Assembly: GCF_000504205.1 (NCBI RefSeq)
Contig: NZ_AZAJ01000001.1
Span: 2,516,879-2,580,878, forward strand
DNA: 64,000 nt
DNA from: Methanolobus tindarius DSM 2278
GTDB taxonomy: Archaea; Halobacteriota; Methanosarcinia; Methanosarcinales; Methanosarcinaceae
Direction of reading: 5' to 3'
The position numbers and the translations under genes were made by a program. How positions within the stretch are numbered: position 1 is the stretch's first letter; each line of letters begins with the position of its first letter. The notes under the pieces were generated by a model that ran no database searches, had not been told where the DNA came from, and saw only the letters and a list, made by a program, of their open reading frames with translations. Below, piece after piece: positions 10,118 to 58,939 of this stretch.

Positions 10118-10506
10118 ATTGAGTGAGGAGAGTAAGCTCCCTTCTGTTAATGCAATACATTCATTCCAACATGGCAGAATGATGCGCTCAAAAGAGCTGC
10201 ATTGACGGCATTCGGCTACGCGTACATAAACTTCGGGAATGGTCTAAACAACCATTGCCCCCTACTTCCGACTTGCACCCACGAGGATTCGCCGTTCCAT
10301 CCGCATTTCATGAGAACTCAGCTTTTCAGCATCATCGCATTGACATGTTGCGGTATCGTTTCTGTGCCAGCATGTGCAAAGCACATGAGTTGCAAAGCAA
10401 CTGCCCTGGCTCTCGCCAGATACCCTTTACAGGTATTCGTGTGTTTAGAAGGTGGGGAGACTTTCCTCAGGTCAAATGACCCGGCAGCCGTCCTTCCTCT
10501 CTCAGT
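10118..10506 (-). ncRNA. rnpB: RNase P RNA (archaeal type A)
   Basis: Catalytic RNA that matures tRNA 5' ends. Read on the minus strand, the universally conserved segments are present in the right order: GAGGAAAGTC (CR-I, about 10460-10470), ACAGAAACG (CR-II/III region, about 10355-10365) and ACAGAAGGGAGCTTAC (CR-V, about 10131-10148). The ends pair as helix P1: TGAGAGAGGA (10504-10495) with TCCTCACTCA (10129-10120), one A-A mismatch. A GTCATTTGAC hairpin lies in the P3 position. Ends are inferred from P1. Open frames inside it are artefacts of its high GC content relative to the surroundings. Confidence 0.93.
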
Positions 10507-43517: not shown

Positions 43518-44192
43518 ATGAGCTACGTATATGCGGCCGTAATCGGCATACTGATAGGCATCTTCATCTTCGGTTTAAAGACCGGAGTTGGATGTGGCTT
43601 TTCGACGGTAAAGAAAAAAGATGTTCTGATACTTGCAAGTGGTTATTTTCTTATCTCCGTTATACTTGGAAGTCTTGTAGAAATGGTAGACCAGTCATAT
43701 CTTGAAGGTATTGCAAGCCTTGGAATGACATTGCACGTTTTCATTGCACTGGTTCTTATTGGTGCAGGCATTTATACACAAAAAAAATGGAACTGCGGTC
43801 ATGATGTTTCAAAGAAGACTTTCCTTGTAATTTCAGTCCCCTGTCCTGTATGTCTTACAGCTCTTTTCGTATCATGTATGATACTGGCTTCAACCCTTGA
43901 AATAAGCGGGTGGAAGGTCGGAGTCATTGTAGGACTTGTATTTTTTATTTCAGTAATATCATCAACATTCGTCTTCAGGATGATGAAACGTACACCTGAA
44001 GATCTTGGAACTGCAATGATGTTCCTGGGGCTTTTCTATCTTCTCGGAGCAATGATAGTTCCTGCTTACATCAAGGCAAAAAAACTCAGCATGGCACTGA
44101 ACTGTGGTGGAGATTTCGAGATAGTTCCTCTGTTGATATTATCGATATTCATAATTGGAGGCTATGCACTCAATAGCATAAGAGGTCAATAA
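43518..44192 (+). CDS. DUF2162 membrane protein, putative transporter
   Basis: 224 residues with seven or so transmembrane helices (YAAVIGILIGIFIFGLKTGVGCGFS first, LLILSIFIIGGYALNS last). It resembles the DisA/sulfur-transporter-like or cytochrome-c-biogenesis-like folds only in general shape; the family is DUF2162, described as a predicted transporter in methanogens. Cysteines occur in GVGCGFS, KWNCGHD, VPCPVCLTALFVSC and LNCGGD; PCPVC may bind a metal. It is first of a three-gene operon with ExbB- and ExbD-like genes (2-base gap downstream), and precedes the CobN gene. Confidence 0.8.
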   Translation: MSYVYAAVIGILIGIFIFGLKTGVGCGFSTVKKKDVLILASGYFLISVILGSLVEMVDQSYLEGIASLGMTLHVFIALVLIGAGIYTQKKWNCGHDVSKKTFLVISVPCPVCLTALFVSCMILASTLEISGWKVGVIVGLVFFISVISSTFVFRMMKRTPEDLGTAMMFLGLFYLLGAMIVPAYIKAKKLSMALNCGGDFEIVPLLILSIFIIGGYALNSIRGQ

Positions 44193-44194
44193 AA

Positions 44195-44818
44195 ATGGAT
44201 GCTACTTCTACGTTGTTTGGTATATTATACACATTTTCAGCATCATTGCTGTATCCGGTAATTATTATCCTGATATTGCTTGTGGTATTTTCTTTGATGC
44301 TTATAGGGGAATTCCTCTCAGAGTATGCAAAAAGGCACAGAGATATTGAAAACCTTGAACTTTGCTGCAGTGCTGTCAGGGAACATGTAAGTTCTCAACA
44401 ATATGATAAGGCAGCAAAGGCACTTCGCAATATTAAGCAGAATTTCATGGTTATGAGCTTTGCAGAATCCGCAGCTGGTCACCTTGAAAAGAACATGTTA
44501 CCTGCCATTGAATGGCTTTCTCAGGAATATGAGATAAGGATGGCAAAAAGGCTGGAACAGACAAGGATTGTTGCAACAATCTCACCAATGCTTGGTCTTA
44601 TGGGAACACTTATCCCATTGGGTCCTGCACTAATCGGCCTTTCACAGGGCGACATCGAGCAGCTTGCAAACAATCTTATGATTGCGTTTGCAACAACAGT
44701 TATCGGACTTTTCGCAGGAACAATCGGTTATGTTCTCACCCAGGTCAGGAAAAGATGGTACTGGCAGGACATGGCAGATATTGATTATATCCTCGACACT
44801 CTGGAGGTTGGAGAGTGA
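44195..44818 (+). CDS. MotA/TolQ/ExbB-type proton channel protein
   Basis: 207 residues, the ExbB size and layout: N-terminal transmembrane helix (YPVIIILILLVVFSLMLIGEF), a cytoplasmic helical domain with paired cysteine LELCCSAV, then two transmembrane helices containing the family core IVATISPMLGLMGTLIPLGPALIGLSQGDIEQLANNLMIAFATTVIGLFAGTIGYVL (motif positions about 128-190). In this family the pentamer with an ExbD/MotB/TolR-like partner uses the proton or sodium gradient to move an outer component. The partner here is DUF2149, with which it overlaps by 4 bases. Confidence 0.92.
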   Translation: MDATSTLFGILYTFSASLLYPVIIILILLVVFSLMLIGEFLSEYAKRHRDIENLELCCSAVREHVSSQQYDKAAKALRNIKQNFMVMSFAESAAGHLEKNMLPAIEWLSQEYEIRMAKRLEQTRIVATISPMLGLMGTLIPLGPALIGLSQGDIEQLANNLMIAFATTVIGLFAGTIGYVLTQVRKRWYWQDMADIDYILDTLEVGE

Positions 44819-45207
44819 CAAAGAGGAGTGTAAGAAGGCACAGACGAACAGGACTCATAAACAATGAGGATGAGCAGAACCCCTTAACCGGGGTTGCCAA
44901 CCTCTTTGATATTGCCATGGTTTTCTCAGTTGCATTACTTGTAGCACTTGTTATGTCCTACCAGATGCCTGAGCTTCTCAATCCTACAGAGGATATCACT
45001 CTTGTGAAAAACCCTGGTCAAAAAGACATGCAGATTATTATTAAGGAAGAAGGCAAACCCATTGAGGTTCTGAATATGACCGATCAGATTGGTGGCGGTC
45101 AGGGTGAAGCGCTGGGCACTGCCTATAAATTAGCTGATGGAAGAGTTGTTTACGTACCTGAAGAAGAGGAAGGTGCAGAGGAGGTAGAAACCACTACTTC
45201 CGATTAA
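44815..45207 (+). CDS. DUF2149 protein, ExbD/TolR-like partner
   Basis: 130 residues from GTG 44815 (GTGA overlap with the ExbB stop). Basic N-terminus (KRSVRRHRRTG), then NPLTGVANLFDIAMVFSVALLVALVMSYQ: one transmembrane helix with a conserved Asp (LFDIAM) at its start, like the proton-binding Asp of ExbD/MotB. The outer domain is short (about 75 residues, beta-rich, KDMQIIIKEEGKPIEVL) and ends in a Glu/Thr tail. No sequence identity with ExbD is claimed; the topology and operon are the evidence. Confidence 0.82.
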   Translation: MTKRSVRRHRRTGLINNEDEQNPLTGVANLFDIAMVFSVALLVALVMSYQMPELLNPTEDITLVKNPGQKDMQIIIKEEGKPIEVLNMTDQIGGGQGEALGTAYKLADGRVVYVPEEEEGAEEVETTTSD

Positions 45208-45299
45208 TTTTTTTTCTAACAATAAAACAAGTGGAGTTGTTTTAACTTAAATTTGATTTATGTAAGTGGTTGGTGGATAGGAACTTTAAAAGATGGTGG

Positions 45300-45340
45300 A
45301 GCATTTCGGCACAGCCTGCAAGCAAAGTAACCGAAATGCT
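45300..45340 (+). promoter_or_regulatory. Perfect 10-bp inverted repeat in the CobN leader
   Basis: AGCATTTCGG (45300-45309) and CCGAAATGCT (45331-45340) with a 21-base loop. It ends 20 bases before the CobN ATG; the ribosome binding site GAGGGAT (45351-45357) lies between. A similar though imperfect structure precedes the gene at 50797. No B12-box could be recognised. Confidence 0.55.
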
Positions 45341-45360
45341 GCACGTTATCGAGGGATAAC

Positions 45361-48300
45361 ATGCAAAAAGAAAGAATAGTGACATTGTTCATAAGTATAT
45401 TGTTGTTACTATCGCTAACAACAACAGTATCGGCGGAAGAAAATGACTATTATCTGGTTGCTAATACTACCAGTGATGCAGATGGTAATTTTGTATTTGA
45501 GGATATTCCTAATGGCGAATATTTACTATACGCTGTTAATTACTCTTCTGGTAGAAATAATAGTTGGTATTGGTACAATGCTGCAGTTGATCTAAGTGTC
45601 AATAGTTCTGATCTAAGCGGTCTTGAAATAGAACTAAGCAAAGAATCAGGCATCGATGAAAATGAAGTACTGGCGTATCTTGATAAATCAGCAATTGAAG
45701 GGACAACGTACAGTCCCGGAATGAATGGGAAAATCAACTATAAATCAAGCACTTTAGTTCTTGTTGACAAAATAACAGATGAGGTGGTGACTAACACCAC
45801 TTCAGATAGTAATGGCAATTTTACTTTTGTTAATATTCCTAACGGTGATTACCTGCTATACGCCGTGAATTACTCTTCTGGTAAAAACAATAGCTTTTAT
45901 TGGTATAATGCTGCAGTAGATCTAAGTGTCAATAGTTCTGATCTAAGCGGTCTTGAAATAGAACTAAGCAAAGAATCAGGCATCGATGAAAATGAAGTAC
46001 TGGCGTATCTTGATAAATCAGCAATTGAAGGGACAACGTACAGTCCCGGAATGAATGGGAAAATCAACTATAAATCAAGCACTTTAGTTCTTGTTGACAA
46101 AATAACAGATGAGGTGGTGACTAACACCACTTCAGATAGTAATGGCAATTTTACTTTTGTTAATATTCCTAACGGTGATTACCTGCTATACGCCGTGAAT
46201 TACTCTTCTGGTAAAAACAATAGCTTTTATTGGTATAATGCTGCAGTTGATCTAAGTGTCAACAGTTCTGATTTAAGTGGTCTTGAAATAGAATTAAGCA
46301 AAGAATCAGGTATCGATGAAAAAGAAGTATTGGCGTATCTTGATAGATCAGCAATTGAAGGGATAACGTACAGTCCCGGAATGAACGGAAAAATCAACTA
46401 CAAATCAAGCACTTTAATCTTATTAAAACAAAAAGTGGTTTCAGAAACAAGCAATGCTCCACATCTGAATGTCTCTATCATAACAGGATACTCTTCATAC
46501 AAGACACAACTTGCAAATTTTAAACAGCGAATTAATTCTGATTCGAGTCTTAACATCACAGCGAGCTATTATATTACTGATGACCTGCCTGAAAATATAG
46601 ATTTCAACAATACAGATATTATTTATATAAAGATGGTTACACAGACAGCTTCTGAACTAGAAGAGCAGGTCCAATTTGCTATTGACAATGGAGCATTAGT
46701 TATAGGACAGAATACTGAGCTACCTGAAAGTGATTATTCCCTTCCTTCAGACTATAATACGACTGATAAATTCAAAGAATTCCTTGGTTCATACTGGTCA
46801 GGGACTTCCATAAATGATACTAACCTTGATAACCTCATATTTTATCTTGCAAAAGAATATTATGATCGTGATGACCTCGCAGTTGAAGAACCTGAAGAAC
46901 TAGAAAAAGCCATTTATCATCCTGCAATAACGGACAGCGCTTTTGAATACATGATAAGTGATGCTGAAGAATACTTTAGTTGGTATTCAAATAGAACGGA
47001 CGGACATGCTTTCGACGCAGATGCCCCTACAATAGGTATAACGTTCTATTCCACATATTATCCTACAAATATCGATCCTGTTGATAGTCTTATAGAAAGC
47101 TTTGAGGCTAAGGGAGCAAATGTAATAGCCTGCTACGGTGACACTGATGTGCCTATTGATTCCTATCTTAACTACAATGAAGAAACAAAAGTAGATGCTG
47201 TAGTTTCATTCCATTATCGTGGAAATTACTTTGACCTTGAGGAACTCGATGTACCTGTTATAAATGCCGTCCTCAACCCAAGTATGAATGCTTCTGAATG
47301 GGTAAATTCAAGCACACCACTAGATACTGATAAAATGAATCGTATCTACAGGCCTGAAGGTGAAGGCGTCATTGATCCTATCATGATTGGTGCTCAAGAA
47401 GTCATACAGGTTGACAACAGTACTACAACAGCATATGTTGCAGTTGATCAACAGATAGACTGGATTACAGATCGTGCTATAGCACAGGCAAACCTTGGAC
47501 TGGAGGATGAATCTGATAAGAAGGTTGTAATTATCTACTACAATCATGGCGGTGGAAAAGACAATATCGGAGCATCATATCTTGAGGTTATGCCAAGTAT
47601 TGTGAATCTGCTTGAAGGAATGGCAGACGAAGGATACGATATTAACAGCAGTGCTATTCCCAACAAAACCGAACTTGTAGACCTAATAACTTACCAGGGA
47701 AGAAATGTAGGTACATGGGCACCGGGAGAACTTGAAGCACTTGTAGAAACCGGAGAGGTTGAACTCATTCCTGAAAGCACATATCTTTCATGGTTCAATG
47801 AGCTTCCAGAGGATATGCAGGAGGAAGTTACCGAAACATGGGGAGAAGCACCCGGGGAAATAATGGTCTACACCGATGAAAATGGTGACAAGTTCATTGT
47901 TATCCCGAAGATAAATATAAGCGATAATGTAATTCTTGCACCACAACCTACCAGAGGATGGTTGCAGGATGACGAAATACTTTATCACGACAGGGACCTT
48001 GCTCCACATCATCAGTACATTGCATTCTACCTGTGGTTGCAGAATGAATTCGATGCAGATGTAATGGTTAACATGGGAAGACATGGAACTGTTGAATGGC
48101 TTCCTGGAAAAGAATTTGGTCTACTGAGTGATGAATGGCCTGCACTTATGAACGGTGACATACCTGTAATTTATCCTTATGTCATGGACGGACTGGGAGA
48201 AGGAATACAGGCAAAACGCAGAGGCAATGCAGTAATAATTGATCACCTTATACCTTCAGTAATATCTGCAGGTCTTTATGGTGATTATGCGACACTTAGC

Positions 48301-50601
48301 AGTGAAATTACATCATATCAGACATCTGTGTCAGAAGAAGAGTACAAGCAGGCGCAGTTCTATGACATTGTAAATCTCACAATTGAGCTTGGACTTGATG
48401 ATCAGGTAAATATGAGTCTGGCAGCAAGCAATACAACAATTGATGATTTCCTTGAAGAAGTAGATGATGTACTTACAGAACTTAAGAACCTGTCTATGCC
48501 ATATGGACTGCATGTACTTGGTGAACCACCTGAAGGGGATGAACTTGTAGGAATGGTCAATTCCATGCTAGGGGATGATTATTCAGAACTTGTAGAAACG
48601 TACAATGCATCTGATAATGCATCAGCTGACCTGTTAACCCTTGTATTACTCGAAAACATGTCCACAACAGATGCTCAGCTTCAGATACTTGGAAATTCCA
48701 CAGCTGAAATTGATGAAGAGTTGAACTCATCAATTGACTACGCAGAATTACTTGGGGAATCTGACAATGAAGTTCAACAGGTTCTGAATGCAATGGATGG
48801 TGAATATATCAAAGGAAATCTTGGTGGAGATCCTATACAAAAACCAGAGACACTACCATCAGGACGGAATTTCTATTCCTTTGATGAAGACCTTATACCT
48901 TCAGAAAAAGCATGGGACAATGCTGTAGATCTTATAGACAAATGGCTTGCAGAATACTATGCTGAAAACGGAGAGTACCCAACAAAAGTAGGATATATAC
49001 TCTGGGCTGGTGAAACCACACGTCATGAAGGAGTAATGGAATCCCAGATACTTTATCTGATGGGTATTAAACCTGTGTGGGATGATGGAGAAGTTATAAA
49101 CGTCACTGCAATAAATTCTTCTGATCTGGGAAGACCACGTATTGATGTGTTTGTCCAGATATCAGGTCTTTACAGAGATACCTTCCCTGGAAAGATTGAC
49201 CTTCTTGATCGTGCTGTGAGGCGTGCTTATGAGCAGGAAGAAACTGCAGATTGTCCAAACTATGTTAAACAAAGCACTGATGAACTAAAACTGATTTTCG
49301 ATGAATCTATAGAAAATGAGACACTATCTCTTGATGTTGCCCAGTTCAGGATATTTGGCCCTGCACCAGGTGCATACGGAACTGGAATGGCAAATGCTGT
49401 TGATTCCAGTGACACATGGGAAAATACATCTGAACTTGCAGAGCTCTACATAAACAAGATGTGCTACATATATGGAGAAAATATCTGGGGTCAGACGATT
49501 TCAGAATATGTATTGCAACAGACCGGTCGAACAGTTGAAATTAATGATACAGCTGTCTTTGAGAACAATCTAAATGGAACCCAGGTTATTTTCCATAGCA
49601 GAAGTTCCAATGCATATGGCTCTCTCGACATCGATGATTTCTATCAGTACATGGGAGGATTATACAATGCCATATCGTATATATCAGGTGACGCACCGGA
49701 AATGTACGTTGTAAATCTTCAGGATCTAAGTGATCCAGAGATTCAGACACTTCAGACATATATTGAAAATGAACTCTATGCAAGGTACCTGAATCCATCA
49801 TGGATAGCAGGAATGCAGTTAAGTGGCTTTGAAGGAGCAGCCGAGATTTCAAATTTCATTGATAATTTATACGGATCGGCTGTATTCTTTGGAGATGATG
49901 TTATCAGTAATGATGTCTGGAATAAAATATACGACACTTACATTGGTAATTCAGAAATGATGGCATGGTTAAAGGAAAGTAGTCCTTATGCTGCACAGTC
50001 CATAGGAGCAAGATTATTGCAATCTGATGATATGGGCTTATGGGATGCTTCTGATGACCAGTTATCACAGCTTGTCACGGACTATATGGAATCTGTTGTT
50101 GAATCTGGTTCTCCTGCATGTTGTCATCATACATGTGGTAATCTTCTGAATCAGGAAAACATTTTGGCTCTGGCAGAACTCTATGACGTATCAGATGAAA
50201 TCATTCAACAATACAACAATATAATGTTTGAAGCTACTAGCTTGTCAATATATTCATCCAGTACAGAAACGTCAGAAGTGAGCACTGATCCTGAGCTGCA
50301 CATGGAAGACAGGCATTCTGGAAATTCACTCACCAGATCTATGGCAGCATCTTCCAGATCAAATCAGTCATCTACAACAAAGACGGGTATGGGAGAAAAT
50401 ACCAATATAAATCCTGAAAATACTCAAAAATCAACAACCGATGATTATGTAGAAGGATATGAGATGGTAAAAGATGAGATATCTAATGAGCCACTTGCAA
50501 GTTCCTATGCAATTTCAGGGTCTGACATAGCTGCAATGGGATTTGTAGTGTTTTTACTGGGTGCGATCTATATTGGATTCTGGAAGAGGAGAAAATTCTA
50601 A
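45361..50601 (+). CDS. cobN: Secreted, membrane-anchored CobN-family chelatase subunit
   Basis: 1746 residues. Signal peptide (1-25, TVSAEEN). Residues about 34-356 hold three copies of a 110-residue CarboxypepD-regulatory/Cna-B-like beta repeat; the first is truncated at its start. From about 370 to 1610 is a full CobN/BchH large subunit: SFHYRGNYFDLEELDVPVINAVLNPSM, VNMGRHGTVEWLPGKEFGLLSDEWP (about 902), YILWAGETTRHEGV, LGRPRIDVFVQISGLYRDTFPG (about 1256) and ACCHHTCGNLL (about 1585). A Thr/Ser/Asn tail contains YVEGYEMVKDE before the final transmembrane helix and RRKF. CobN normally inserts cobalt into a corrin in the cytoplasm with two AAA+ partners; here it is exported, and no partners are in the window, so the true substrate is open. 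Energised by the ExbB-like pair is my inference. Confidence 0.9.
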   Translation: MQKERIVTLFISILLLLSLTTTVSAEENDYYLVANTTSDADGNFVFEDIPNGEYLLYAVNYSSGRNNSWYWYNAAVDLSVNSSDLSGLEIELSKESGIDENEVLAYLDKSAIEGTTYSPGMNGKINYKSSTLVLVDKITDEVVTNTTSDSNGNFTFVNIPNGDYLLYAVNYSSGKNNSFYWYNAAVDLSVNSSDLSGLEIELSKESGIDENEVLAYLDKSAIEGTTYSPGMNGKINYKSSTLVLVDKITDEVVTNTTSDSNGNFTFVNIPNGDYLLYAVNYSSGKNNSFYWYNAAVDLSVNSSDLSGLEIELSKESGIDEKEVLAYLDRSAIEGITYSPGMNGKINYKSSTLILLKQKVVSETSNAPHLNVSIITGYSSYKTQLANFKQRINSDSSLNITASYYITDDLPENIDFNNTDIIYIKMVTQTASELEEQVQFAIDNGALVIGQNTELPESDYSLPSDYNTTDKFKEFLGSYWSGTSINDTNLDNLIFYLAKEYYDRDDLAVEEPEELEKAIYHPAITDSAFEYMISDAEEYFSWYSNRTDGHAFDADAPTIGITFYSTYYPTNIDPVDSLIESFEAKGANVIACYGDTDVPIDSYLNYNEETKVDAVVSFHYRGNYFDLEELDVPVINAVLNPSMNASEWVNSSTPLDTDKMNRIYRPEGEGVIDPIMIGAQEVIQVDNSTTTAYVAVDQQIDWITDRAIAQANLGLEDESDKKVVIIYYNHGGGKDNIGASYLEVMPSIVNLLEGMADEGYDINSSAIPNKTELVDLITYQGRNVGTWAPGELEALVETGEVELIPESTYLSWFNELPEDMQEEVTETWGEAPGEIMVYTDENGDKFIVIPKINISDNVILAPQPTRGWLQDDEILYHDRDLAPHHQYIAFYLWLQNEFDADVMVNMGRHGTVEWLPGKEFGLLSDEWPALMNGDIPVIYPYVMDGLGEGIQAKRRGNAVIIDHLIPSVISAGLYGDYATLSSEITSYQTSVSEEEYKQAQFYDIVNLTIELGLDDQVNMSLAASNTTIDDFLEEVDDVLTELKNLSMPYGLHVLGEPPEGDELVGMVNSMLGDDYSELVETYNASDNASADLLTLVLLENMSTTDAQLQILGNSTAEIDEELNSSIDYAELLGESDNEVQQVLNAMDGEYIKGNLGGDPIQKPETLPSGRNFYSFDEDLIPSEKAWDNAVDLIDKWLAEYYAENGEYPTKVGYILWAGETTRHEGVMESQILYLMGIKPVWDDGEVINVTAINSSDLGRPRIDVFVQISGLYRDTFPGKIDLLDRAVRRAYEQEETADCPNYVKQSTDELKLIFDESIENETLSLDVAQFRIFGPAPGAYGTGMANAVDSSDTWENTSELAELYINKMCYIYGENIWGQTISEYVLQQTGRTVEINDTAVFENNLNGTQVIFHSRSSNAYGSLDIDDFYQYMGGLYNAISYISGDAPEMYVVNLQDLSDPEIQTLQTYIENELYARYLNPSWIAGMQLSGFEGAAEISNFIDNLYGSAVFFGDDVISNDVWNKIYDTYIGNSEMMAWLKESSPYAAQSIGARLLQSDDMGLWDASDDQLSQLVTDYMESVVESGSPACCHHTCGNLLNQENILALAELYDVSDEIIQQYNNIMFEATSLSIYSSSTETSEVSTDPELHMEDRHSGNSLTRSMAASSRSNQSSTTKTGMGENTNINPENTQKSTTDDYVEGYEMVKDEISNEPLASSYAISGSDIAAMGFVVFLLGAIYIGFWKRRKF
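45461..46430 (+). repeat. Three tandem 330-bp repeats in the CobN gene
   Basis: Period exactly 330 bp (110 codons), units about 45461-45790, 45791-46120 and 46121-46430. For example TACTCTTCTGGT recurs at 45541, 45871 and 46201. From about 45590 to 46250 units are almost base-identical between neighbours; the first unit diverges at its start and the last at its end, the pattern of recent in-frame duplication or gene conversion. Confidence 0.95.
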
Positions 50602-50610
50602 AGAACTTTT

Positions 50611-50648
50611 TGGCGCTTTTAAATAAGCGCCATTTTCATTTTTACACA
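50611..50648 (+). terminator. Stem-loop terminator after CobN
   Basis: TGGCGCTT (50611-50618) and AAGCGCCA (50625-50632) form a perfect 8-bp stem with a six-base loop, followed by TTTTCATTTTTAC. It separates CobN from the small gene downstream. Confidence 0.7.
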
Positions 50649-50724
50649 TTATATTTTGGATATCTATCGCATTTGAAACGCTTGCAAGTATCAATTCTTT
50701 TCACAGTCATAAAATAAGATTAGG

Positions 50725-50767
50725 CAGTACTTGTAAAAACTTCTGCGTAGCTGCTAAGCAAGTTCTG
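50725..50767 (+). promoter_or_regulatory. Inverted repeat in the leader of the 119-residue protein
   Basis: CAGTACTTG (50725-50733) and CAAGTTCTG (50759-50767) pair at 8 of 9 positions with a 25-base loop, ending 29 bases before the ATG at 50797. Arm length, loop size and placement resemble the CobN leader structure at 45300-45340. Confidence 0.4.
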
Positions 50768-50796
50768 AAGAGTTCTACACATCACCGGGTGTTAAT

Positions 50797-51156
50797 ATGC
50801 AATATACAAAAATAATTTCATTGATTTTATTTGTATTTTGTTTGTTAGTGTTAACCAACATTACTACCATGTGTATGGCAGATGTAAATTCAACTAACAG
50901 CAGCAATACTTCATTGAATATCACAGAAACATCTGGAAAGAACCTATCAGTACAGAAATTTGCATCCGGTAATTATGTTAAAGGATATGACATGGAACAT
51001 GAGCAGTCTCCACCGATTCCGGACTCTGAAAACATTGGTATTTCAATATTTGAGCTGGCAGTAGCTTTGATTGTTATTGGAGGCATAGGGACTTTTTATG
51101 TCGTTGCATTGTTAATTGTATTTGCAGTGATTCTGAAGTCTGCAAAGAAAAAGTAA
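50797..51156 (+). CDS. Small secreted membrane protein with a tail motif like the CobN protein
   Basis: 119 residues. Signal peptide or first helix (1-28, LILFVFCLLVLTNITTMCMADV), an Asn/Ser/Thr-rich stretch, the motif NYVKGYDMEHEQ, then a C-terminal helix (ISIFELAVALIVIGGIGTFYVVALLIVFAVIL) and KSAKKK. The motif closely parallels DYVEGYEMVKDE just before the CobN anchor, so this is a CobN-like protein without the catalytic body, perhaps a docking or regulatory partner. No family is recognised. GGGTG lies 8 bases before the ATG. Confidence 0.7.
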   Translation: MQYTKIISLILFVFCLLVLTNITTMCMADVNSTNSSNTSLNITETSGKNLSVQKFASGNYVKGYDMEHEQSPPIPDSENIGISIFELAVALIVIGGIGTFYVVALLIVFAVILKSAKKK

Positions 51157-51508: not shown

Positions 51509-54500
51509 TTAAGATTCATCCCAGTCATGGCATGAAACACAGCTAGTGTATTCAGGTTCAACAACTGAAATATAATACTGCTTTGTCTTTAAATTATAAC
51601 CATATTGATTTGAAACGTTTAGCTGAACATTATAATCCCTATTTCCTACATACGTATGCGTTGGGTTTTGTTCAGTCGATGTACTGCCATCCCCAAAATT
51701 CCAGTTCCAACTGTTGGCACCGGTAGATACATCGGTGAACTGAACAGTCAACGGAGAAACTCCATACGTAACATCCGATACAAAATTTGCAATTGGTTCT
51801 AGACAATTAGAGATTACATAAACGCTATAATCATCGTATGTGAATTCATATCCACTATTCAATTGTGGACTTTCCATAAAAAAAGTTCTATGATCATCAT
51901 TTAATGGATTATTATAATACCAATCCCATAGTGTAGGTTCACTTTCACCATATTTCCAATGTTTATAATATGCAGTATTATCCTCTTGATAATATTTGAA
52001 CCAATACCAATTTCCTGATTCAGACTTATAATCATATTTTGTGATATTGCAGCTTTCTTCTTCATACCAATAGCATACTCTGTTATTCAGAGCATCATAT
52101 AATATAGATGCTCCAACATCCCCGCTAGGAGATATATAATATGGAGCACGTAAATTAATAATACCATTTGGATCTGTACATCTCATACGATATTGAACTA
52201 TTATGTTACCAGAGGGAATTATTTCTGATTTCGGGTATATCCATACACTTCTGTTATCAGTAATGTGTAAAGACCCTCCGTTCTCAGTAAGGTTTCCACC
52301 AGAGGTCCAATATCCAAGACCGCCATCATTAAATCTGTCAGTGAATACTCTTGTGTATGTTATATTAGGTGAAAAAGAAGTTATTGAAATGTCATCTATT
52401 CCACATCCATTTACACCTACATTTCTTGCATAAACTTCAAAATACTCACCGTCAACAGATGGATCACATATTCCTTCCCAATCCCAATCAATAGGTTCAC
52501 TTGTACCATCTTTCCAAATCTTGAACTTAATGTATCCAGCATCGTGGTATTGCAACTTGATGTGATACCAAGCTCCAATTTCAGACTGGAAATCATATTT
52601 TGTATCAATATGGAGTATGTTCCATTCATTTCTTTCAGTTGTCCATTCTTCAACTGATAACTTATTACTATCATCTGTAAACAATTTTATAGCTATACTA
52701 TTGTCATCCCAGTCTTTTTGAATTGGAAACACCCATAATTCACCAGGGTCATTATTTTTCACCTTAAAATTAATTTCTTTATTTCCATAAATACCTCCAT
52801 TGCTAACTGAAATCTCAGAATAATCTACATTTGATGACAAGTAATAGGAGCTTGCAGACCATGTTCCATCAGCCCACCATGCATTATAGTTCCCATCACT
52901 GAAATCTTCAGTAAAAGAATCAATTGGTACAACATGAATGTAATCTGACTTTGTTTCAGTATAATATCCTTTCTCAGTTAGTATATTCAATTGTACTGTG
53001 TATAGTCCACCCTCATTATATGCATGAATTGGATTTTGTTCAGTTGAAGTGGAGCCATCACCGAAGTTCCATTGCCATGTGCTGGGATTGTTATTTGAAT
53101 CATCATAAAATGTAATATTTTGTCCGACATAGACAGTTTGGGCATTAGTATGGAAATCAGTTACTTGTGAACTATATGCATGAATATAATCTTCCTTTGT
53201 CTCGATAAAGTAGCTTGTAGCATTTGATACATTCACTTCTACATTATATGTCCCAGCATTGGAATAAGTATGTATAGGGTTTTGCTCCGTAGAAGTGTTT
53301 CCATCACCGAAATTCCAGTACCAAGAATCTGCATATCCTGAATTTTCGTAAAAATGAACTGAAAGGGGAACTTCTCCTTCAGTAACATTTGAAGTAAAAG
53401 ACATTGTGTTATTATAAACTTCGATTATCCATGATGTATTACTAGTGCTTTGTTCATCTTTTAAATTTAAAGTAACTTTATGAAGACCTGGATTTAAGAA
53501 CACATATTCTACAACATTTCCATACTTGCTTTTATTGGTATCATCATCAATAATCCACTCATACTGAACTGTTTTCTCAAATGTACCACTTATAATAGTA
53601 CTGTTATTGGCATCGAAAACTATAGGATTACCGACTTCAGGATTTAATGTATTTTCCCAGTCGTAAGTAAACTTTGGAATTAAAGTATTAGATGTTAATT
53701 CAATACTGTCCTTAATTCCTGTGTACCTTTCTGTATCCACTGAATAAACAGTGTATATTGATCCATAATTTGCGCTTGTAACATAGTATGTTTGTGAAGT
53801 ATTATTTAGGAGCACATTATCGCGATATATATAATATTCATCTATATCGTAATCTCCATTTACGCCAATCCACGATAGTTCAATATTGTCATCATCCATC
53901 TCACGAATTGATAAATTTGTAATTGAAACTGGTTTTACATTTCTTATTCTGATTTCTGGCGTTGAGGCAATATTGTTTGAAGTATCAGTTGCGTATATTT
54001 TTATTGTGTGATTACCATAGGATTCATCTAGACTTGCCAATAATAAACCACTATATATACTATATGTGAAATTTTGTTCTTGTCCATCTACAATTAACTT
54101 TATAGACGAGTTATTGACACCAGATCCTTCATCATTTATTGACACATTTACTGTAATGTTTCCAATATAAATATCAGAGTAATCCCATTCAATGATAGGT
54201 TTCTTATTGTCATAACCAATTCCGTAAGTTCCTAGTTCTGAAGACAGATTTGTTGATACAATCTGCAAAGATTTATCAATACTTGAATTATGGGGCACCC
54301 ATGAATCTTTTTCATCATTCCATTCGTAAATTGACAGTTTTGATTCGTCAATTATTGATTTCATAACAGTTTGAGGATAACCATTTCTATCATCTATCCA
54401 AGCAATATAATCTCCTCCGAGGACAGGTGATGATTGATTAAATGAATTGTTACAAATCACAATTTCTTCATTTGAATTCAAGTCATACATGTATATATCT

Positions 54501-57500
54501 GGATTATCATCTCTATCATCTGTCCATACTATTCTATTACCATATATACAAGGATTTGTCTGGTTACCAGATTCATTGCATAGGATTGCAGTCTCATCTG
54601 AAGTTAAGTTGTATAGATATATATCACAATCTCCGTTGCGGTCATCTACCCAAACAATCAGATTACCTGAAACATCAGGACTAAATTGGTTTCCTGAATC
54701 ACTGCAAATGTTCACAGTTTCTTTAGTTGAGATATCATACATGCGTATATCTGTATGTAGTGTAGTATCGTTGATACCTGTCCATACAATATAATTTTCT
54801 GATATAGAAGGTTCTGATTCAAAGAAATAATAATCATCGTCAGTACTTATCTTTGTTTCAGAGCCTGTTGATAGATTGCACATGAAAATGTCTCCTCCAT
54901 AATATTCGCTTTTATCCATCCATACAAGGTTACTATCAGAAATATCCGGCATGCAACTACTTGTTGGAGTGGACATTACTGATATTGAATCCAAATAAAC
55001 CTCACATTCGGCAAAATCAAAGCAATATACCATAAATACCACTTCATGATTACCAGTGTATTCAGATATGTCTATTGATACTGTACCACCATTAGAGTAT
55101 CTTAATCCGGGAATCCCCCATCCACCACTGTTGGGATTTTGGTAACCATATACATCTTCATCATCTATATATACAACAAATTGTGCAATAGAACCGCTAA
55201 ATTCATATCCATCATACATAGAATATGTAAAACAAAGCTCACTTGCATTAGTTAAATTTATATTTTGTCTTATTAGCGAAAAAGAATCTATTTCGTCTTC
55301 ACGAGTATCTGCACGAAGTAAAGCTCTGTTATTTATAACATTTGCAGAACCATAAACATAAGACCAACCTCCCCCACAGCTTACAGTCCACCCGGCAAAA
55401 TCTCCGGTTTCAAATCCACCATTTAGTACTTTATTTATAGATCTTTCTGATGAATTTGTTACACGGATCAATTCGTCAGTAAACAGATTGTATGCCCCTA
55501 TGTTTCCCTCAAGTGAAGCACCTGTAAAAGTAGTCCATGCAATATAATTTTCTGAGATTACAGGGTTGACATAATTGCTTAATCCTATTTTATATTCCTT
55601 ATCTTCATCATTGTTTAAATCAGATATTACTAAATGTGTGTAATTAGACCATACTATTTTATCACAGAAAATGTCATGATAAAGCTGCATTCCATTATTA
55701 ATAGTGCTTTCATTCATTTCAAATGAAGATATATCCTCTTCAGAGTAAGCAAGATTCAATTGAACATTTGAAAAATCACCTGTACCAGATGATTGAATAT
55801 CATTAACACTATTAATCATAATGTTTGCACCACTTGAGCTTTCAATAAAATCTGTAGATATTGAATCATCAGCAAAGAAATTCATAGTTTCTTCAGTTGG
55901 TTTTTCCGGAACATAGGAAACTATAGTAACATTTTCATCAGAAATGTTACTTCCACTTAATAATGATATCTCATTCATTGGTCCGTCGATCACTGTATAT
56001 ATATCTTCAGGGGAACTTTCTAAATCATAATTTATGCTATCAATAAGGTTTAGTGTAATATCGCTAAGATTTTTGGCGTGATATTCTACAGGATTTTGAA
56101 GTATAGAGTTATCTGGATAATTTATGTAATAATAATCTTTTTGGCCAAAAACCAGTCCTTTATCTGTTAAGTAATTGTTTGCGATTCCAGCTTTTAGCCC
56201 TACACCCAGGTCCAGCTTTATTCCATCGACTGTCAATTTGAATGGAATGTCAATTCCAACATCTTCCCCATAACTCTCTTCAGATTTAATTTCTGTATAA
56301 TCATCATGATATGTTGTTGCTAATTGAGAAAAAATTTGACTGTTTAATACAGTCAATAGATTTGAATTAAATGGATTGTTTTTTATCATATCCTCAGATG
56401 TAATTTCACCAATATCATAGGTTACTTCTTTTGTTATGGCCCTACGACCACCAATCAAATTGTCACCTATTACTTCTGTAGCTTTCACTACATGCTTTGA
56501 ATTTAATGTATTATTGTCATTCAGTTCCAGTATTGTAGTAAAATCTGCGGAATCAGTATATCCCCAATCAATTAAAGGAAAACTTGATACGTGCCAGTCA
56601 AGGTTAGCACTTAAATCACTTACAGTTTGTAATCTATATTGTGGATTTCTATCATTGTACGTTCGCAGACTCAAAAGTTTACTTCCTTCGTATCCTACTC
56701 CAAGTGAAGCATCATTAACTAAAACTGGGCTAATATTCGTATTTAGTTTGAATAGTGATGCACTTGCACCCTCCGAGATACCCGCACCGATTTCACAAAA
56801 ATCATAATTAAGTTGTGATTCTGAATTATAGCTCGAAAGGAAATTTAATAATTTAATTGATGTGCTTGATGGAGCTATACTTGATAACATATATGAAATT
56901 GCTTGCCTTTTTTCGGAATTTGGTGCATTTGCATAATCAAGACTTACTTGAGAGCTTTCTGAGATTGTGCATGTTTTATGAATATCAATCCCCAAAGCTT
57001 CGGCGTTTAGCCCGGGCGTTTCCATTTCAAATGCTGAATATTGTGCGCCAACTGTAATTCCTGCTTCCTGAGATGATTGCAAATTTAAATTTGTGTCAGA
57101 ATTAAATGCTGTCATTTCAAAATCAGTTGCACTTTCACCTTTCACATAAACAACAGGTCCACCACCTGCTTCCATCGACTTCCCAGTATACCATGTGGTT
57201 GAATAGTTTCGAGGAATAATTGATAAAGTAAAATTAAATATGGAAGTATCATTAAGGGACTTTGTATTATCATTATGCTCGATTGTTACTTCATTAACTG
57301 AAAGTTCTTTAGAACCCGTTGTTGTAATATCTGAAGTATTTATTTTTATTGCAAATATTCCATTTTCATCCGTATTGGTATGGGTGAAATCTGTTATTTC
57401 ATCTGTGATTATGGTGACTTTTGAATTAGGATATTTTGTCTTGTATACCCGGGAGTAGATGCCTCCGGTTTCTATTGTATCAATATTCGGAGATAATAAA

Positions 57501-58939
57501 TAGCAATCTTCATTTTTATGGACAACTATTTTAAAAGCTGAGATATTTTGATTATTTGCAGAGTCAGTTGCAACAACTGATATACTATTGTCTCCTTCAT
57601 TCAGAGGTACATTTGCAAACCAATCATTGCTATTAAAGGTAGCTTCTATATTATTTACTGCTAATGAAAAGGAATTAGGATCTGAAGCTGAACCCGTAAC
57701 TGTTATGTTAGACATTCCTACTATTACTTGTCCAGGTGAAGGATAGTTAACAGTAATACTTGGAGTAGTTTTATCTATACGATATAAACAGACGTTATAT
57801 GTATTTTCTGTACGAGCAGACCATACGACATACTCTCCCGATATTTGTGGGTGAGACGAGTCATAATAAAGTTTGGTTTTTTGCTTTGTAGATAAATCTA
57901 TCAAATATGTTCCACTATTACTTCCTGATAAAGAGTATACGAGGTATTCATTTTCAATATCAGTTGCTTCTGGAATTACAGCTTCTGAAAAAGAAGCTTG
58001 TTCGCCAGTTTCCAAATTATAGTAAACTATGTAATAATTATTATTTCTCCATTTATGCCAAACAATATATTTATCAGAAAGTATCGGATTAACAAACATT
58101 GAACTAGCTATGTCTCCTTCATCAGCTTCATCCAGATCAAAAGTTGCTTCATGAGTCCAATAAATAGTTCGAACTTTATTAGTTGTAAAGTCTTTATACA
58201 TAATTGAGGTTGTAGGTTTTTCAATAACTTTCTTCGAAAAATTTCCAAATCTTACATAATATGATTTTGCAGGTTCATAATCTATCCATACCATACCATT
58301 TTCGTTTATATAAGAATCATATTGGTCATGATATCCAGTGAAATAATAGATATCATTTTGTGGTGACTGGGGTGTTCTTACGACTACATCTCTTCTTAAT
58401 ATGTCTAATTCCTCTTCCTCCTCTTCTAAATCAAGATAATCATATTGATAACAATCTGTGTATGTAATAAGGTTTCCAGAAATAGAAGGCATTACTTGTG
58501 ACTTTGATAAACCCAAAGTAATATTGGAATATTCACCTGTAGAAATGTCATATGCCATAATATCCCAATTCATATTTCTTTGATATATTTGGTCTAATTT
58601 TCCCCACCAATTATCAATACTTGGTTCATTTTCTATTAACCGGCCATCGGTCCATACTACATAACTATCTGACACCTTTGGTTCTATTTGCTGACCTTCC
58701 GCATTGCATATGACTGTTGATTCTTCTGTGGATATATCATACATCATAATGTCCATGTTTCCATTCATATCATCCTGCCAGACAATTATATTGCCATAAA
58801 TTGAAGGCATGGTCTGATTTGAATTATTATTGATTAATTGGATACATTGTCCTTCATCTAATTCCAATGCAGTTACTATTCCGATACTCAGTATACTAAT
58901 TAATATTGCTAATAAGAAAGTGGTGTATTTCATTCCCAA
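51509..58939 (-). CDS. Giant TolB-like propeller/PKD surface protein ending in CxxCH
   Basis: 2476 residues with a signal peptide (1-24). A first set of TolB/DPP-like propeller blades (about 30-410, NIIVWQDDMNGNMDIMMYDIST) is followed by an Ig-like domain (about 420-490), a unique central region (about 540-1110), a second blade set with an inserted jelly-roll segment (about 1120-1560), Ig and fibronectin-like domains (about 1600-1730), PKD domains near 1740-1980 (FGDGNTSTEQNPIHTYSNAG type), two lectin-like beta modules (about 1990-2375), a last PKD (about 2385-2465), and the end YTSCVSCHDWDES. CVSCH is a c-type heme motif. There is no PGF-CTERM and no C-terminal helix, so anchoring is unclear. 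Probably an S-layer-associated structural or binding protein; composition is AT-rich. Confidence 0.88.
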   Translation of the reverse strand: MGMKYTTFLLAILISILSIGIVTALELDEGQCIQLINNNSNQTMPSIYGNIIVWQDDMNGNMDIMMYDISTEESTVICNAEGQQIEPKVSDSYVVWTDGRLIENEPSIDNWWGKLDQIYQRNMNWDIMAYDISTGEYSNITLGLSKSQVMPSISGNLITYTDCYQYDYLDLEEEEEELDILRRDVVVRTPQSPQNDIYYFTGYHDQYDSYINENGMVWIDYEPAKSYYVRFGNFSKKVIEKPTTSIMYKDFTTNKVRTIYWTHEATFDLDEADEGDIASSMFVNPILSDKYIVWHKWRNNNYYIVYYNLETGEQASFSEAVIPEATDIENEYLVYSLSGSNSGTYLIDLSTKQKTKLYYDSSHPQISGEYVVWSARTENTYNVCLYRIDKTTPSITVNYPSPGQVIVGMSNITVTGSASDPNSFSLAVNNIEATFNSNDWFANVPLNEGDNSISVVATDSANNQNISAFKIVVHKNEDCYLLSPNIDTIETGGIYSRVYKTKYPNSKVTIITDEITDFTHTNTDENGIFAIKINTSDITTTGSKELSVNEVTIEHNDNTKSLNDTSIFNFTLSIIPRNYSTTWYTGKSMEAGGGPVVYVKGESATDFEMTAFNSDTNLNLQSSQEAGITVGAQYSAFEMETPGLNAEALGIDIHKTCTISESSQVSLDYANAPNSEKRQAISYMLSSIAPSSTSIKLLNFLSSYNSESQLNYDFCEIGAGISEGASASLFKLNTNISPVLVNDASLGVGYEGSKLLSLRTYNDRNPQYRLQTVSDLSANLDWHVSSFPLIDWGYTDSADFTTILELNDNNTLNSKHVVKATEVIGDNLIGGRRAITKEVTYDIGEITSEDMIKNNPFNSNLLTVLNSQIFSQLATTYHDDYTEIKSEESYGEDVGIDIPFKLTVDGIKLDLGVGLKAGIANNYLTDKGLVFGQKDYYYINYPDNSILQNPVEYHAKNLSDITLNLIDSINYDLESSPEDIYTVIDGPMNEISLLSGSNISDENVTIVSYVPEKPTEETMNFFADDSISTDFIESSSGANIMINSVNDIQSSGTGDFSNVQLNLAYSEEDISSFEMNESTINNGMQLYHDIFCDKIVWSNYTHLVISDLNNDEDKEYKIGLSNYVNPVISENYIAWTTFTGASLEGNIGAYNLFTDELIRVTNSSERSINKVLNGGFETGDFAGWTVSCGGGWSYVYGSANVINNRALLRADTREDEIDSFSLIRQNINLTNASELCFTYSMYDGYEFSGSIAQFVVYIDDEDVYGYQNPNSGGWGIPGLRYSNGGTVSIDISEYTGNHEVVFMVYCFDFAECEVYLDSISVMSTPTSSCMPDISDSNLVWMDKSEYYGGDIFMCNLSTGSETKISTDDDYYFFESEPSISENYIVWTGINDTTLHTDIRMYDISTKETVNICSDSGNQFSPDVSGNLIVWVDDRNGDCDIYLYNLTSDETAILCNESGNQTNPCIYGNRIVWTDDRDDNPDIYMYDLNSNEEIVICNNSFNQSSPVLGGDYIAWIDDRNGYPQTVMKSIIDESKLSIYEWNDEKDSWVPHNSSIDKSLQIVSTNLSSELGTYGIGYDNKKPIIEWDYSDIYIGNITVNVSINDEGSGVNNSSIKLIVDGQEQNFTYSIYSGLLLASLDESYGNHTIKIYATDTSNNIASTPEIRIRNVKPVSITNLSIREMDDDNIELSWIGVNGDYDIDEYYIYRDNVLLNNTSQTYYVTSANYGSIYTVYSVDTERYTGIKDSIELTSNTLIPKFTYDWENTLNPEVGNPIVFDANNSTIISGTFEKTVQYEWIIDDDTNKSKYGNVVEYVFLNPGLHKVTLNLKDEQSTSNTSWIIEVYNNTMSFTSNVTEGEVPLSVHFYENSGYADSWYWNFGDGNTSTEQNPIHTYSNAGTYNVEVNVSNATSYFIETKEDYIHAYSSQVTDFHTNAQTVYVGQNITFYDDSNNNPSTWQWNFGDGSTSTEQNPIHAYNEGGLYTVQLNILTEKGYYTETKSDYIHVVPIDSFTEDFSDGNYNAWWADGTWSASSYYLSSNVDYSEISVSNGGIYGNKEINFKVKNNDPGELWVFPIQKDWDDNSIAIKLFTDDSNKLSVEEWTTERNEWNILHIDTKYDFQSEIGAWYHIKLQYHDAGYIKFKIWKDGTSEPIDWDWEGICDPSVDGEYFEVYARNVGVNGCGIDDISITSFSPNITYTRVFTDRFNDGGLGYWTSGGNLTENGGSLHITDNRSVWIYPKSEIIPSGNIIVQYRMRCTDPNGIINLRAPYYISPSGDVGASILYDALNNRVCYWYEEESCNITKYDYKSESGNWYWFKYYQEDNTAYYKHWKYGESEPTLWDWYYNNPLNDDHRTFFMESPQLNSGYEFTYDDYSVYVISNCLEPIANFVSDVTYGVSPLTVQFTDVSTGANSWNWNFGDGSTSTEQNPTHTYVGNRDYNVQLNVSNQYGYNLKTKQYYISVVEPEYTSCVSCHDWDES

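Follow-up and report, generated by a model that had tools for sequence, protein, structure and literature searches.

An archaeal operon linking an exported CobN-type chelatase subunit to an ExbB-like motor pair in Methanolobus tindarius

What might a CobN-type chelatase subunit do on the outside of an archaeal cell, beside the genes of a membrane motor? The question is raised by a locus of Methanolobus tindarius DSM 2278 that lies in a stretch of 64,000 nucleotides (contig NZ_AZAJ01000001.1, positions 2,516,879 to 2,580,878; hereafter the window). Here, genes for a DUF2162 membrane protein, an ExbB-like channel, a DUF2149 protein, a large CobN and a small membrane protein follow one another (Table 1), where an earlier note made from the sequence alone had placed them. 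That note described an overlapping operon, which holds in part: the ExbB-like and DUF2149 genes share 4 bp, the sole overlap, and spacings of 2 bp (DUF2162 to ExbB), 153 bp (DUF2149 to CobN) and 195 bp (CobN to the small membrane protein) separate the others. On the best reading of the sequence comparisons, the operon would represent, in archaea, the extracytoplasmic class I chelatase systems of BtuS/HmuS type, and not HmuS itself.

The window CobN matches the NCBIfam model of CobN with 2344 bits and resembles CobNST and ChlHID in its homologous large subunit and in a DDxFQY-type active-site motif, as in Mycobacterium tuberculosis CobN; those enzymes, however, are cytoplasmic, metal-inserting and driven by ATP through AAA+ partners. 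By contrast, the window protein begins with a signal peptide, MQKERIVTLFISILLLLSLTTTVSA, continues with approximately three transthyretin-like repeats (weak Pfam matches) and ends in a C-terminal anchor, an architecture that the note had seen correctly. It also contains 42 N-glycosylation sequons. Archaeal surface-type CobNs have a median of 19.9 sequons per 1000 residues, 2.1 times expectation, whereas cytoplasmic archaeal CobNs have 1.2 per 1000 residues, 0.38 times expectation, and this difference is an independent sign of export. Signal peptide, anchor and sequons thus all point away from the cytoplasmic location that the note had named as fatal to its idea, and a predicted position outside the cell, tethered to the membrane, is well supported. 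There was no AAA+ CobS or CobT partner in the operon, and PF01078 matches in the genome were weak only.

ExbBD, TolQR and MotAB are established ion-driven stators. Across 82 archaeal and bacterial sequences, including HmuU, the PxxGLxGT and TTxxGL motifs of the second and third transmembrane helices of the ExbB-like channel are near-invariant, and P131, G134, L135, T138, T167, T168 and G171 are conserved in the window protein. DUF2149 has the build of an ExbD/TolR/MotB-type partner, with one N-terminal helix (predicted at residues 23-50), an aspartate near its start, as the note had remarked, and a short outer domain. This residue, Asp32, is present in 88 of 89 archaeal and bacterial sequences and is glutamate in the remaining one. 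The AlphaFold model of DUF2149 has a predicted local distance difference test score (pLDDT) of 54.5, and the protein is 44-53% identical to HmuV proteins of Bacteroidota. The pair therefore resembles the three stators in its channel motifs and in a single helix with an invariant aspartate, but differs in that the ExbD/TolR profile PF02472 did not match the window DUF2149, for which the Pfam search returned PF09919 alone, and in that its proposed client is a surface protein of cells without an outer membrane. We consider it well supported by the motor residues that the window pair is a functional-looking ion-driven stator.

Linkage of DUF2162, ExbB, DUF2149 and CobN genes is far beyond chance. 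DUF2162 was found in 87 and DUF2149 in 93 of the 295 genomes of the phylum sample. In an archaeal neighbourhood survey of the kind that the note had suggested, CobN lay within 4 kb at 40 of the 53 DUF2149 genes with an adjoining DUF2162, a count from loci selected by the investigator, several of them cut by contig ends; some pairs were CobN-less. The 3.15-Mb M. tindarius genome encodes two CobNs, both exported, and no cytoplasmic CobN. The second (1812 residues, L015 8174-13612) is accompanied by a DUF2162-ExbB-DUF2149 set of its own, and secreted proteins encoded upstream of it (L015 2324-6515) share its N-terminal domain, possibly a common binding module. Two or three tandem surface CobN paralogues stand behind one motor set at nine further loci (L046, L047, L048, L049, L106, L107, L109, L115 and L126).

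The combination of CobN, ExbB-like and DUF2149 genes is also that of the Bacteroidota hmu operon, the products of which are HmuY and HmuR, followed by a CobN, a membrane protein and proteins of the ExbB and DUF2149 families (PMC10434189). At 27 Bacteroidota loci, we observed the order CobN-HmuT-ExbB-DUF2149 wherever the contig was long enough, with few exceptions. HmuS, the CobN-like protein of the operon, has been characterised as a heme de-chelatase (PMC12583661, PMC10434189). For metalloporphyrin salvage, BtuS was proposed as a third type of CobN (Rodionov 2003, as cited in PMC6460266). The note's phrase 'candidate new system', and its remark that the arrangement had no characterised function, therefore have to be given up; its exported CobN, functional-looking motor and lack of a CobS/CobT-type partner in the operon stand. 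Like BtuS, the window CobN is CobN-like and exported, whereas the BtuS proposal, as so cited, concerns bacteria, and the archaeal motor operon is undescribed in the open-licence literature that we searched.

Kinship with HmuS extends to the protein. The best Protein Data Bank match of the window CobN is HmuS (9d26, 3.5e-134; M. tuberculosis CobN, 9.8e-123), and its full PF02514 domain and fold place it in the class I chelatase superfamily (CobN/ChlH/HmuS). The modelled fold of residues 403-1598 (pLDDT 62) is clearly that of the superfamily; Foldseek ranked HmuS 9d26 first (E 1e-54, template modelling score 0.60), followed by CobN and ChlH, although this order is weak evidence because the HmuS-rich alignment behind the model favours HmuS. 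In chelatase trees of 98 and 37 sequences, one branch parts the exported, motor-linked CobNs (archaeal, HmuS and bacterial) from the cytoplasmic archaeal CobNs, with support of 0.99-1.0 in one analysis and an SH-like approximate likelihood ratio of 99 in another; as the trees have no known root, this is a split and not a proven clade.

Similarity to HmuS-HmuT-HmuU-HmuV includes the encoding, in one operon, of an exported, anchored CobN-like chelatase, an ExbB-like HmuU and a DUF2149-type HmuV, but the window system has the unrelated DUF2162 in place of HmuT and has neither HmuY nor HmuR. The HmuS family is defined by a Met-rich insertion, Met79, His254 and body motifs (PMC12583661). His538 of HmuS is essential for heme turnover. 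The HFG(T/A)HG motif with His538 has a counterpart in the window CobN, His908 in NMGRHG, with flanking residues that diverge in the window clade; most archaeal surface relatives have HFGxHG. At the position of LSLDHxxEFMGG, which contains His1209, the window CobN has the CobN-like SLDIDDFYQYMGG, and archaeal surface CobNs in general have DxDDFxQYxG, which resembles DSDDYFQYHGG of M. tuberculosis CobN. In place of the Met-rich insertion (domain IV) there is a stretch of 54 residues with 3 Met, versus 215 with 24 in HmuS. In place of the heme ligands Met79 and His254 there are a nearby Met and FHYRG, the His of which is unconserved in close relatives. Filing the window CobN as HmuS is ruled out by the absence of all three features.

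It is established that archaea have neither an outer membrane nor a TonB receptor. Trichlorobacter lovleyi, a bacterium, has a separate exbB-exbD-tonB set beside its ExbB-DUF2149 pair. For these two reasons we regard CobN as the probable client of the motor, which would act on the surface chelatase. The persistence in archaea of HmuU- and HmuV-like genes beside CobN suggests a motor that works for the chelatase itself, in bacteria as well as in archaea. Previously, HmuU and HmuV were taken to energise the outer-membrane heme receptor HmuR (PMC12583661). No such role can apply in an archaeon, which is without an outer membrane.

Evidence on the cargo comes from relatives. In the cobalamin cluster of T. 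lovleyi plasmid pSZ77, a TonB receptor-DUF2162-ExbB-DUF2149-CobN run is directly preceded by two cobalamin riboswitches, and the authors who described it remarked on the lack of CobS and CobT and on an unknown role (PMC3403914). Its DUF2162-ExbB-DUF2149-CobN order is identical to that of the window, and a DNDDFxQYxG motif and a CC-rich tail motif are shared, whereas the receptor and riboswitches in front and the separate exbBD-tonB are not shared. One archaeal locus (L073) reads DUF2162-ExbB-DUF2149-CobN-cbiM-cbiQ-cbiO-cbiT-cbiL-cbiF, thus joining the operon to a cobalt energy-coupling-factor transporter and corrin genes, and at two others (L071 and L072) CobN is followed by cbiT-cbiL and onward. 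Bacterial cousins without DUF2162 occur in nickel contexts (the Runella hyp cluster and Azospirillum nikR) or with heme genes (Bacteroidota). In our reading, the HmuS, HmuU and HmuV relatives (S-U-V) would form a general extracytoplasmic chelatase-plus-motor, the metal of which varies between lineages and would be cobalt in the DUF2162 type. The window paralogue is linked to cobalt through kinship only, and its metal is less certain than that of the family. The neighbours common to Methanosarcinaceae loci are housekeeping genes (fibrillarin, NMD3 and others), which say nothing of cargo. Small CbiX-type chelatases are present in the genome and both CobNs are exported, so the exported CobN would not be needed for cobalt insertion. 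The second surface CobN has, some 7 kb away, a gene for an exported protein of 649 residues with a class II chelatase domain of CbiX type (L160 34-1980, minus strand; genome C1:311687-313633), and close copies (72-80%) occur in three other genomes of the genus.

We tentatively propose, with a confidence just short of even, an ATP-independent surface chelatase that is powered by the ion gradient and strips metal, most likely cobalt, from tetrapyrroles. The CobN-like subunit would be held on the outer face of the membrane by one helix, and its cleft would bind an external metal-tetrapyrrole, from which the metal would be removed without ATP. The ExbB-like channel and DUF2149 would form an ion-driven stator that works CobN mechanically, replacing the AAA+ CobS-CobT or ChlI-ChlD, and DUF2162 would carry across the membrane either the ion set free or reducing equivalents. 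The cargo would most likely be cobalt from corrinoids or other cobalt tetrapyrroles. Driving by an ion gradient or stripping of metal, both raised in the note, remain the best reading. Sequence data speak for export, gene linkage, intact motor residues, S-U-V kinship and the cobalt and cobalamin context in relatives; from these we infer the direction of the reaction, the metal and substrate, the action of the motor on the chelatase and the role of DUF2162.

Two elements may handle the released metal. Of 48 archaeal surface CobNs, 45 have an exact CCHHxCGN motif behind the chelatase core, and of 50 others none does; the counterparts of the motif are SCSGFVCDN in HmuS and ACCDHTCNN in T. lovleyi, and cytoplasmic CobNs end upstream of it. 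We propose that the window's CCHHTCGN is a metal hand-off site. DUF2162 has an intramembrane CPxC (Cys109 and Cys112) that is invariant in 55 relatives and would suit metal transport or thiol electron transfer; HmuS requires reduced heme (PMC12583661). We favour metal transport, with low confidence. In Bacteroidota the slot of DUF2162 is taken by HmuT, in Runella by a UreH/NicO-like protein, and a weak DUF2162 match elsewhere in the genome of a relative is a NicO/DsbD-like protein. Homology of DUF2162 to HmuT was ruled out (hhalign probability 0.4%). A tblastn search of plasmids with the window DUF2162 gave no match, although a profile search detects DUF2162 in T. lovleyi.

Several observations weigh against the proposed cobalt-stripping chelatase. 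Where HmuS has its catalytic partner His1209, the window protein has Asp, as in CobN, so HmuS chemistry is not to be assumed for it. One clade (L063, L130 and L131) has no HFGTHG histidine motif, yet keeps CCHHTCGN and the motor operon. HmuS does not need HmuTUV for its activity in vitro (PMC12583661), so the chemistry may run without power from the motor. We found no riboswitch control of the operon in the window, and no cobalt gene adjoins it; a DtxR-type iron regulator adjoins the second DUF2162-ExbB-DUF2149-CobN locus, and two M. barkeri (Methanosarcina) BtuS homologues respond to iron or sulfur source (PMC10846266). ExbB-DUF2149 pairs also exist without CobN, an occurrence that the note had counted against itself and that is partly the case. 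A third pair in the genome (L016 9419-10401; also L111, L114 and L116) stands beside a conserved S-layer protein, without CobN or DUF2162. In an uncultured archaeal family (L138, L141, L143, L144, L148, L150 and L153), the pair abuts or overlaps genes for large anchored surface proteins with VxGxPF before the anchor and, in those scanned, CARDB or beta-helix domains; these are possibly motor-driven proteins of another kind.

A membrane-proximal G..M box stands ahead of the anchor in each of the 46 archaeal surface CobNs whose anchor was detected (YVEGYEM in the window), with the variants VEGFEM in T. lovleyi, VKGYKM in Runella and KGVVM in HmuS. Unrelated anchored proteins beside CobN-less motor genes have VEGKRM or VAGHPM, namely three beta-helix proteins (L065, L077 and L078) and a BtuF-type binding protein (L079). 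In a prospective check on 20 new DUF2149 loci, the strict VxGxxM was absent before the anchor of every motor-adjacent protein; proteins overlapping or abutting the ExbB gene at these loci had VxGxPF. The looser [VIM]xGxx[MFL] was found in 9 of 18 motor-adjacent anchored proteins versus 5 of 53 others (p = 0.0006), for a pattern loosened post hoc, related sequences and 'others' that include some spurious reading frames. S-layer proteins adjacent to motor pairs had no box. We offer the VxGxxM box as a motor-docking site only as a hypothesis. It is possible, if doubtful, that ExbB-DUF2149 is a general force module for proteins on the outer face of the cytoplasmic membrane, driven by the ion gradient and independent of an outer membrane or TonB, with clients recognised through a VxGxxM-type box and CobN as an ion-powered client that passes metal through CCHHTCGN to DUF2162. 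The small protein behind CobN has a signal peptide and then a CobN-like tail, with the box NYVKGYDM and a membrane helix. Its position holds a second tandem CobN in five relatives (L106, L109, L113, L115 and L126), and it may be a remnant of such a CobN or a small tail-mimicking subunit.

The iron regulator, the M. barkeri responses and HmuS as the closest solved structure would fit an exported de-chelatase of heme or iron-tetrapyrroles that serves iron salvage or the turnover of heme, in function an HmuS of archaea. We think this unlikely: the three defining HmuS features discussed above are missing, HmuT is absent, and relatives are placed among cobalt and cobalamin genes. Quite unlikely, in our view, is a receptor without turnover: CobN would trap corrinoids or other tetrapyrroles, and a membrane transporter would receive them once the motor had driven them off. 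The clade that keeps the operon without the catalytic histidine motif fits this idea, as does the CobN-less pair adjoining the anchored BtuF-type protein of L079, but most relatives, and the window CobN, retain the His538 equivalent, and the near-invariant CCHHTCGN suggests handling of free metal. CobN-less pairs beside S-layer, beta-helix/CARDB and binding proteins might also mean that the motor serves DUF2162 or another envelope protein, with CobN an independent neighbour; this is very unlikely, as CobN-ExbB-DUF2149 is kept across Bacteroidota, Proteobacteria and archaea while the fourth gene varies. Least likely of all is nickel as the metal, taken from F430 or from other chelates of nickel. 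The Runella hyp cluster with its UreH/NicO-like protein in the DUF2162 slot and the Azospirillum relative beside NikR could be cited for it, but those relatives lack DUF2162, and the DUF2162 type is linked to genes for cobalamin.

Table 1. Features of the operon, in window positions.
Feature	Position	Strand	Evidence
DUF2162 membrane protein, predicted transporter	43518..44192	+	Pfam PF09930, 225 bits
MotA/TolQ/ExbB-family channel, HmuU relative	44195..44818	+	Pfam PF01618, 46 bits
DUF2149, HmuV relative; ExbD/TolR/MotB-like partner	44815..45207	+	Pfam PF09919, 122 bits
Exported, membrane-anchored CobN-type chelatase subunit, 1746 aa, HmuS/BtuS relative	45361..50601	+	Pfam, NCBIfam and PDB matches; trees; Foldseek
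CobN N-terminal transthyretin/carboxypeptidase-regulatory-like repeats	45436..46485, approximate	+	Several weak Pfam matches
CobN/Mg-chelatase core, residues 485-1568	46813..50064	+	PF02514, 1050 bits
CobN His908 in NMGRHG, equivalent of HmuS His538	48082..48084	+	Alignments to 9d26 and HmuS
CobN CCHHTCGN, residues 1587-1594, putative metal hand-off site	50119..50142	+	Motif counts
CobN membrane-proximal box YVEGYEM, residues 1696-1702, candidate motor-docking motif	50446..50466	+	Function inferred
Small membrane protein, 119 residues	50797..51156	+	Signal peptide, NYVKGYDM tail and membrane helix

Elsewhere in the window, a convergent gene (51509-58939, minus strand) encodes a 2476-residue PKD surface protein with a c-type heme motif, CVSCH, among its last residues, and positions 10121-10503 (minus strand) encode the archaeal RNase P RNA (Rfam, 151 bits).

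The chemistry of HmuS, the hmu gene set, BtuS as a third CobN type and the two BtuS proteins of M. barkeri were already known. In the open-licence literature searched, we did not find the archaeal motor operon presented as a relative of S-U-V, the link between DUF2162 and cobalt, the CCHHTCGN motif, the shared membrane-proximal box or an argument from archaea as to which protein the motor serves. The authors of the HmuS study stated that complete hmu operons are missing from archaea and called the function of archaeal 'CobN' unclear (PMC12583661). Cobalt salvage would be a testable role for these archaeal genes, and the archaeal system offers a clear way of testing the idea that ion gradients can drive metal chelatases.

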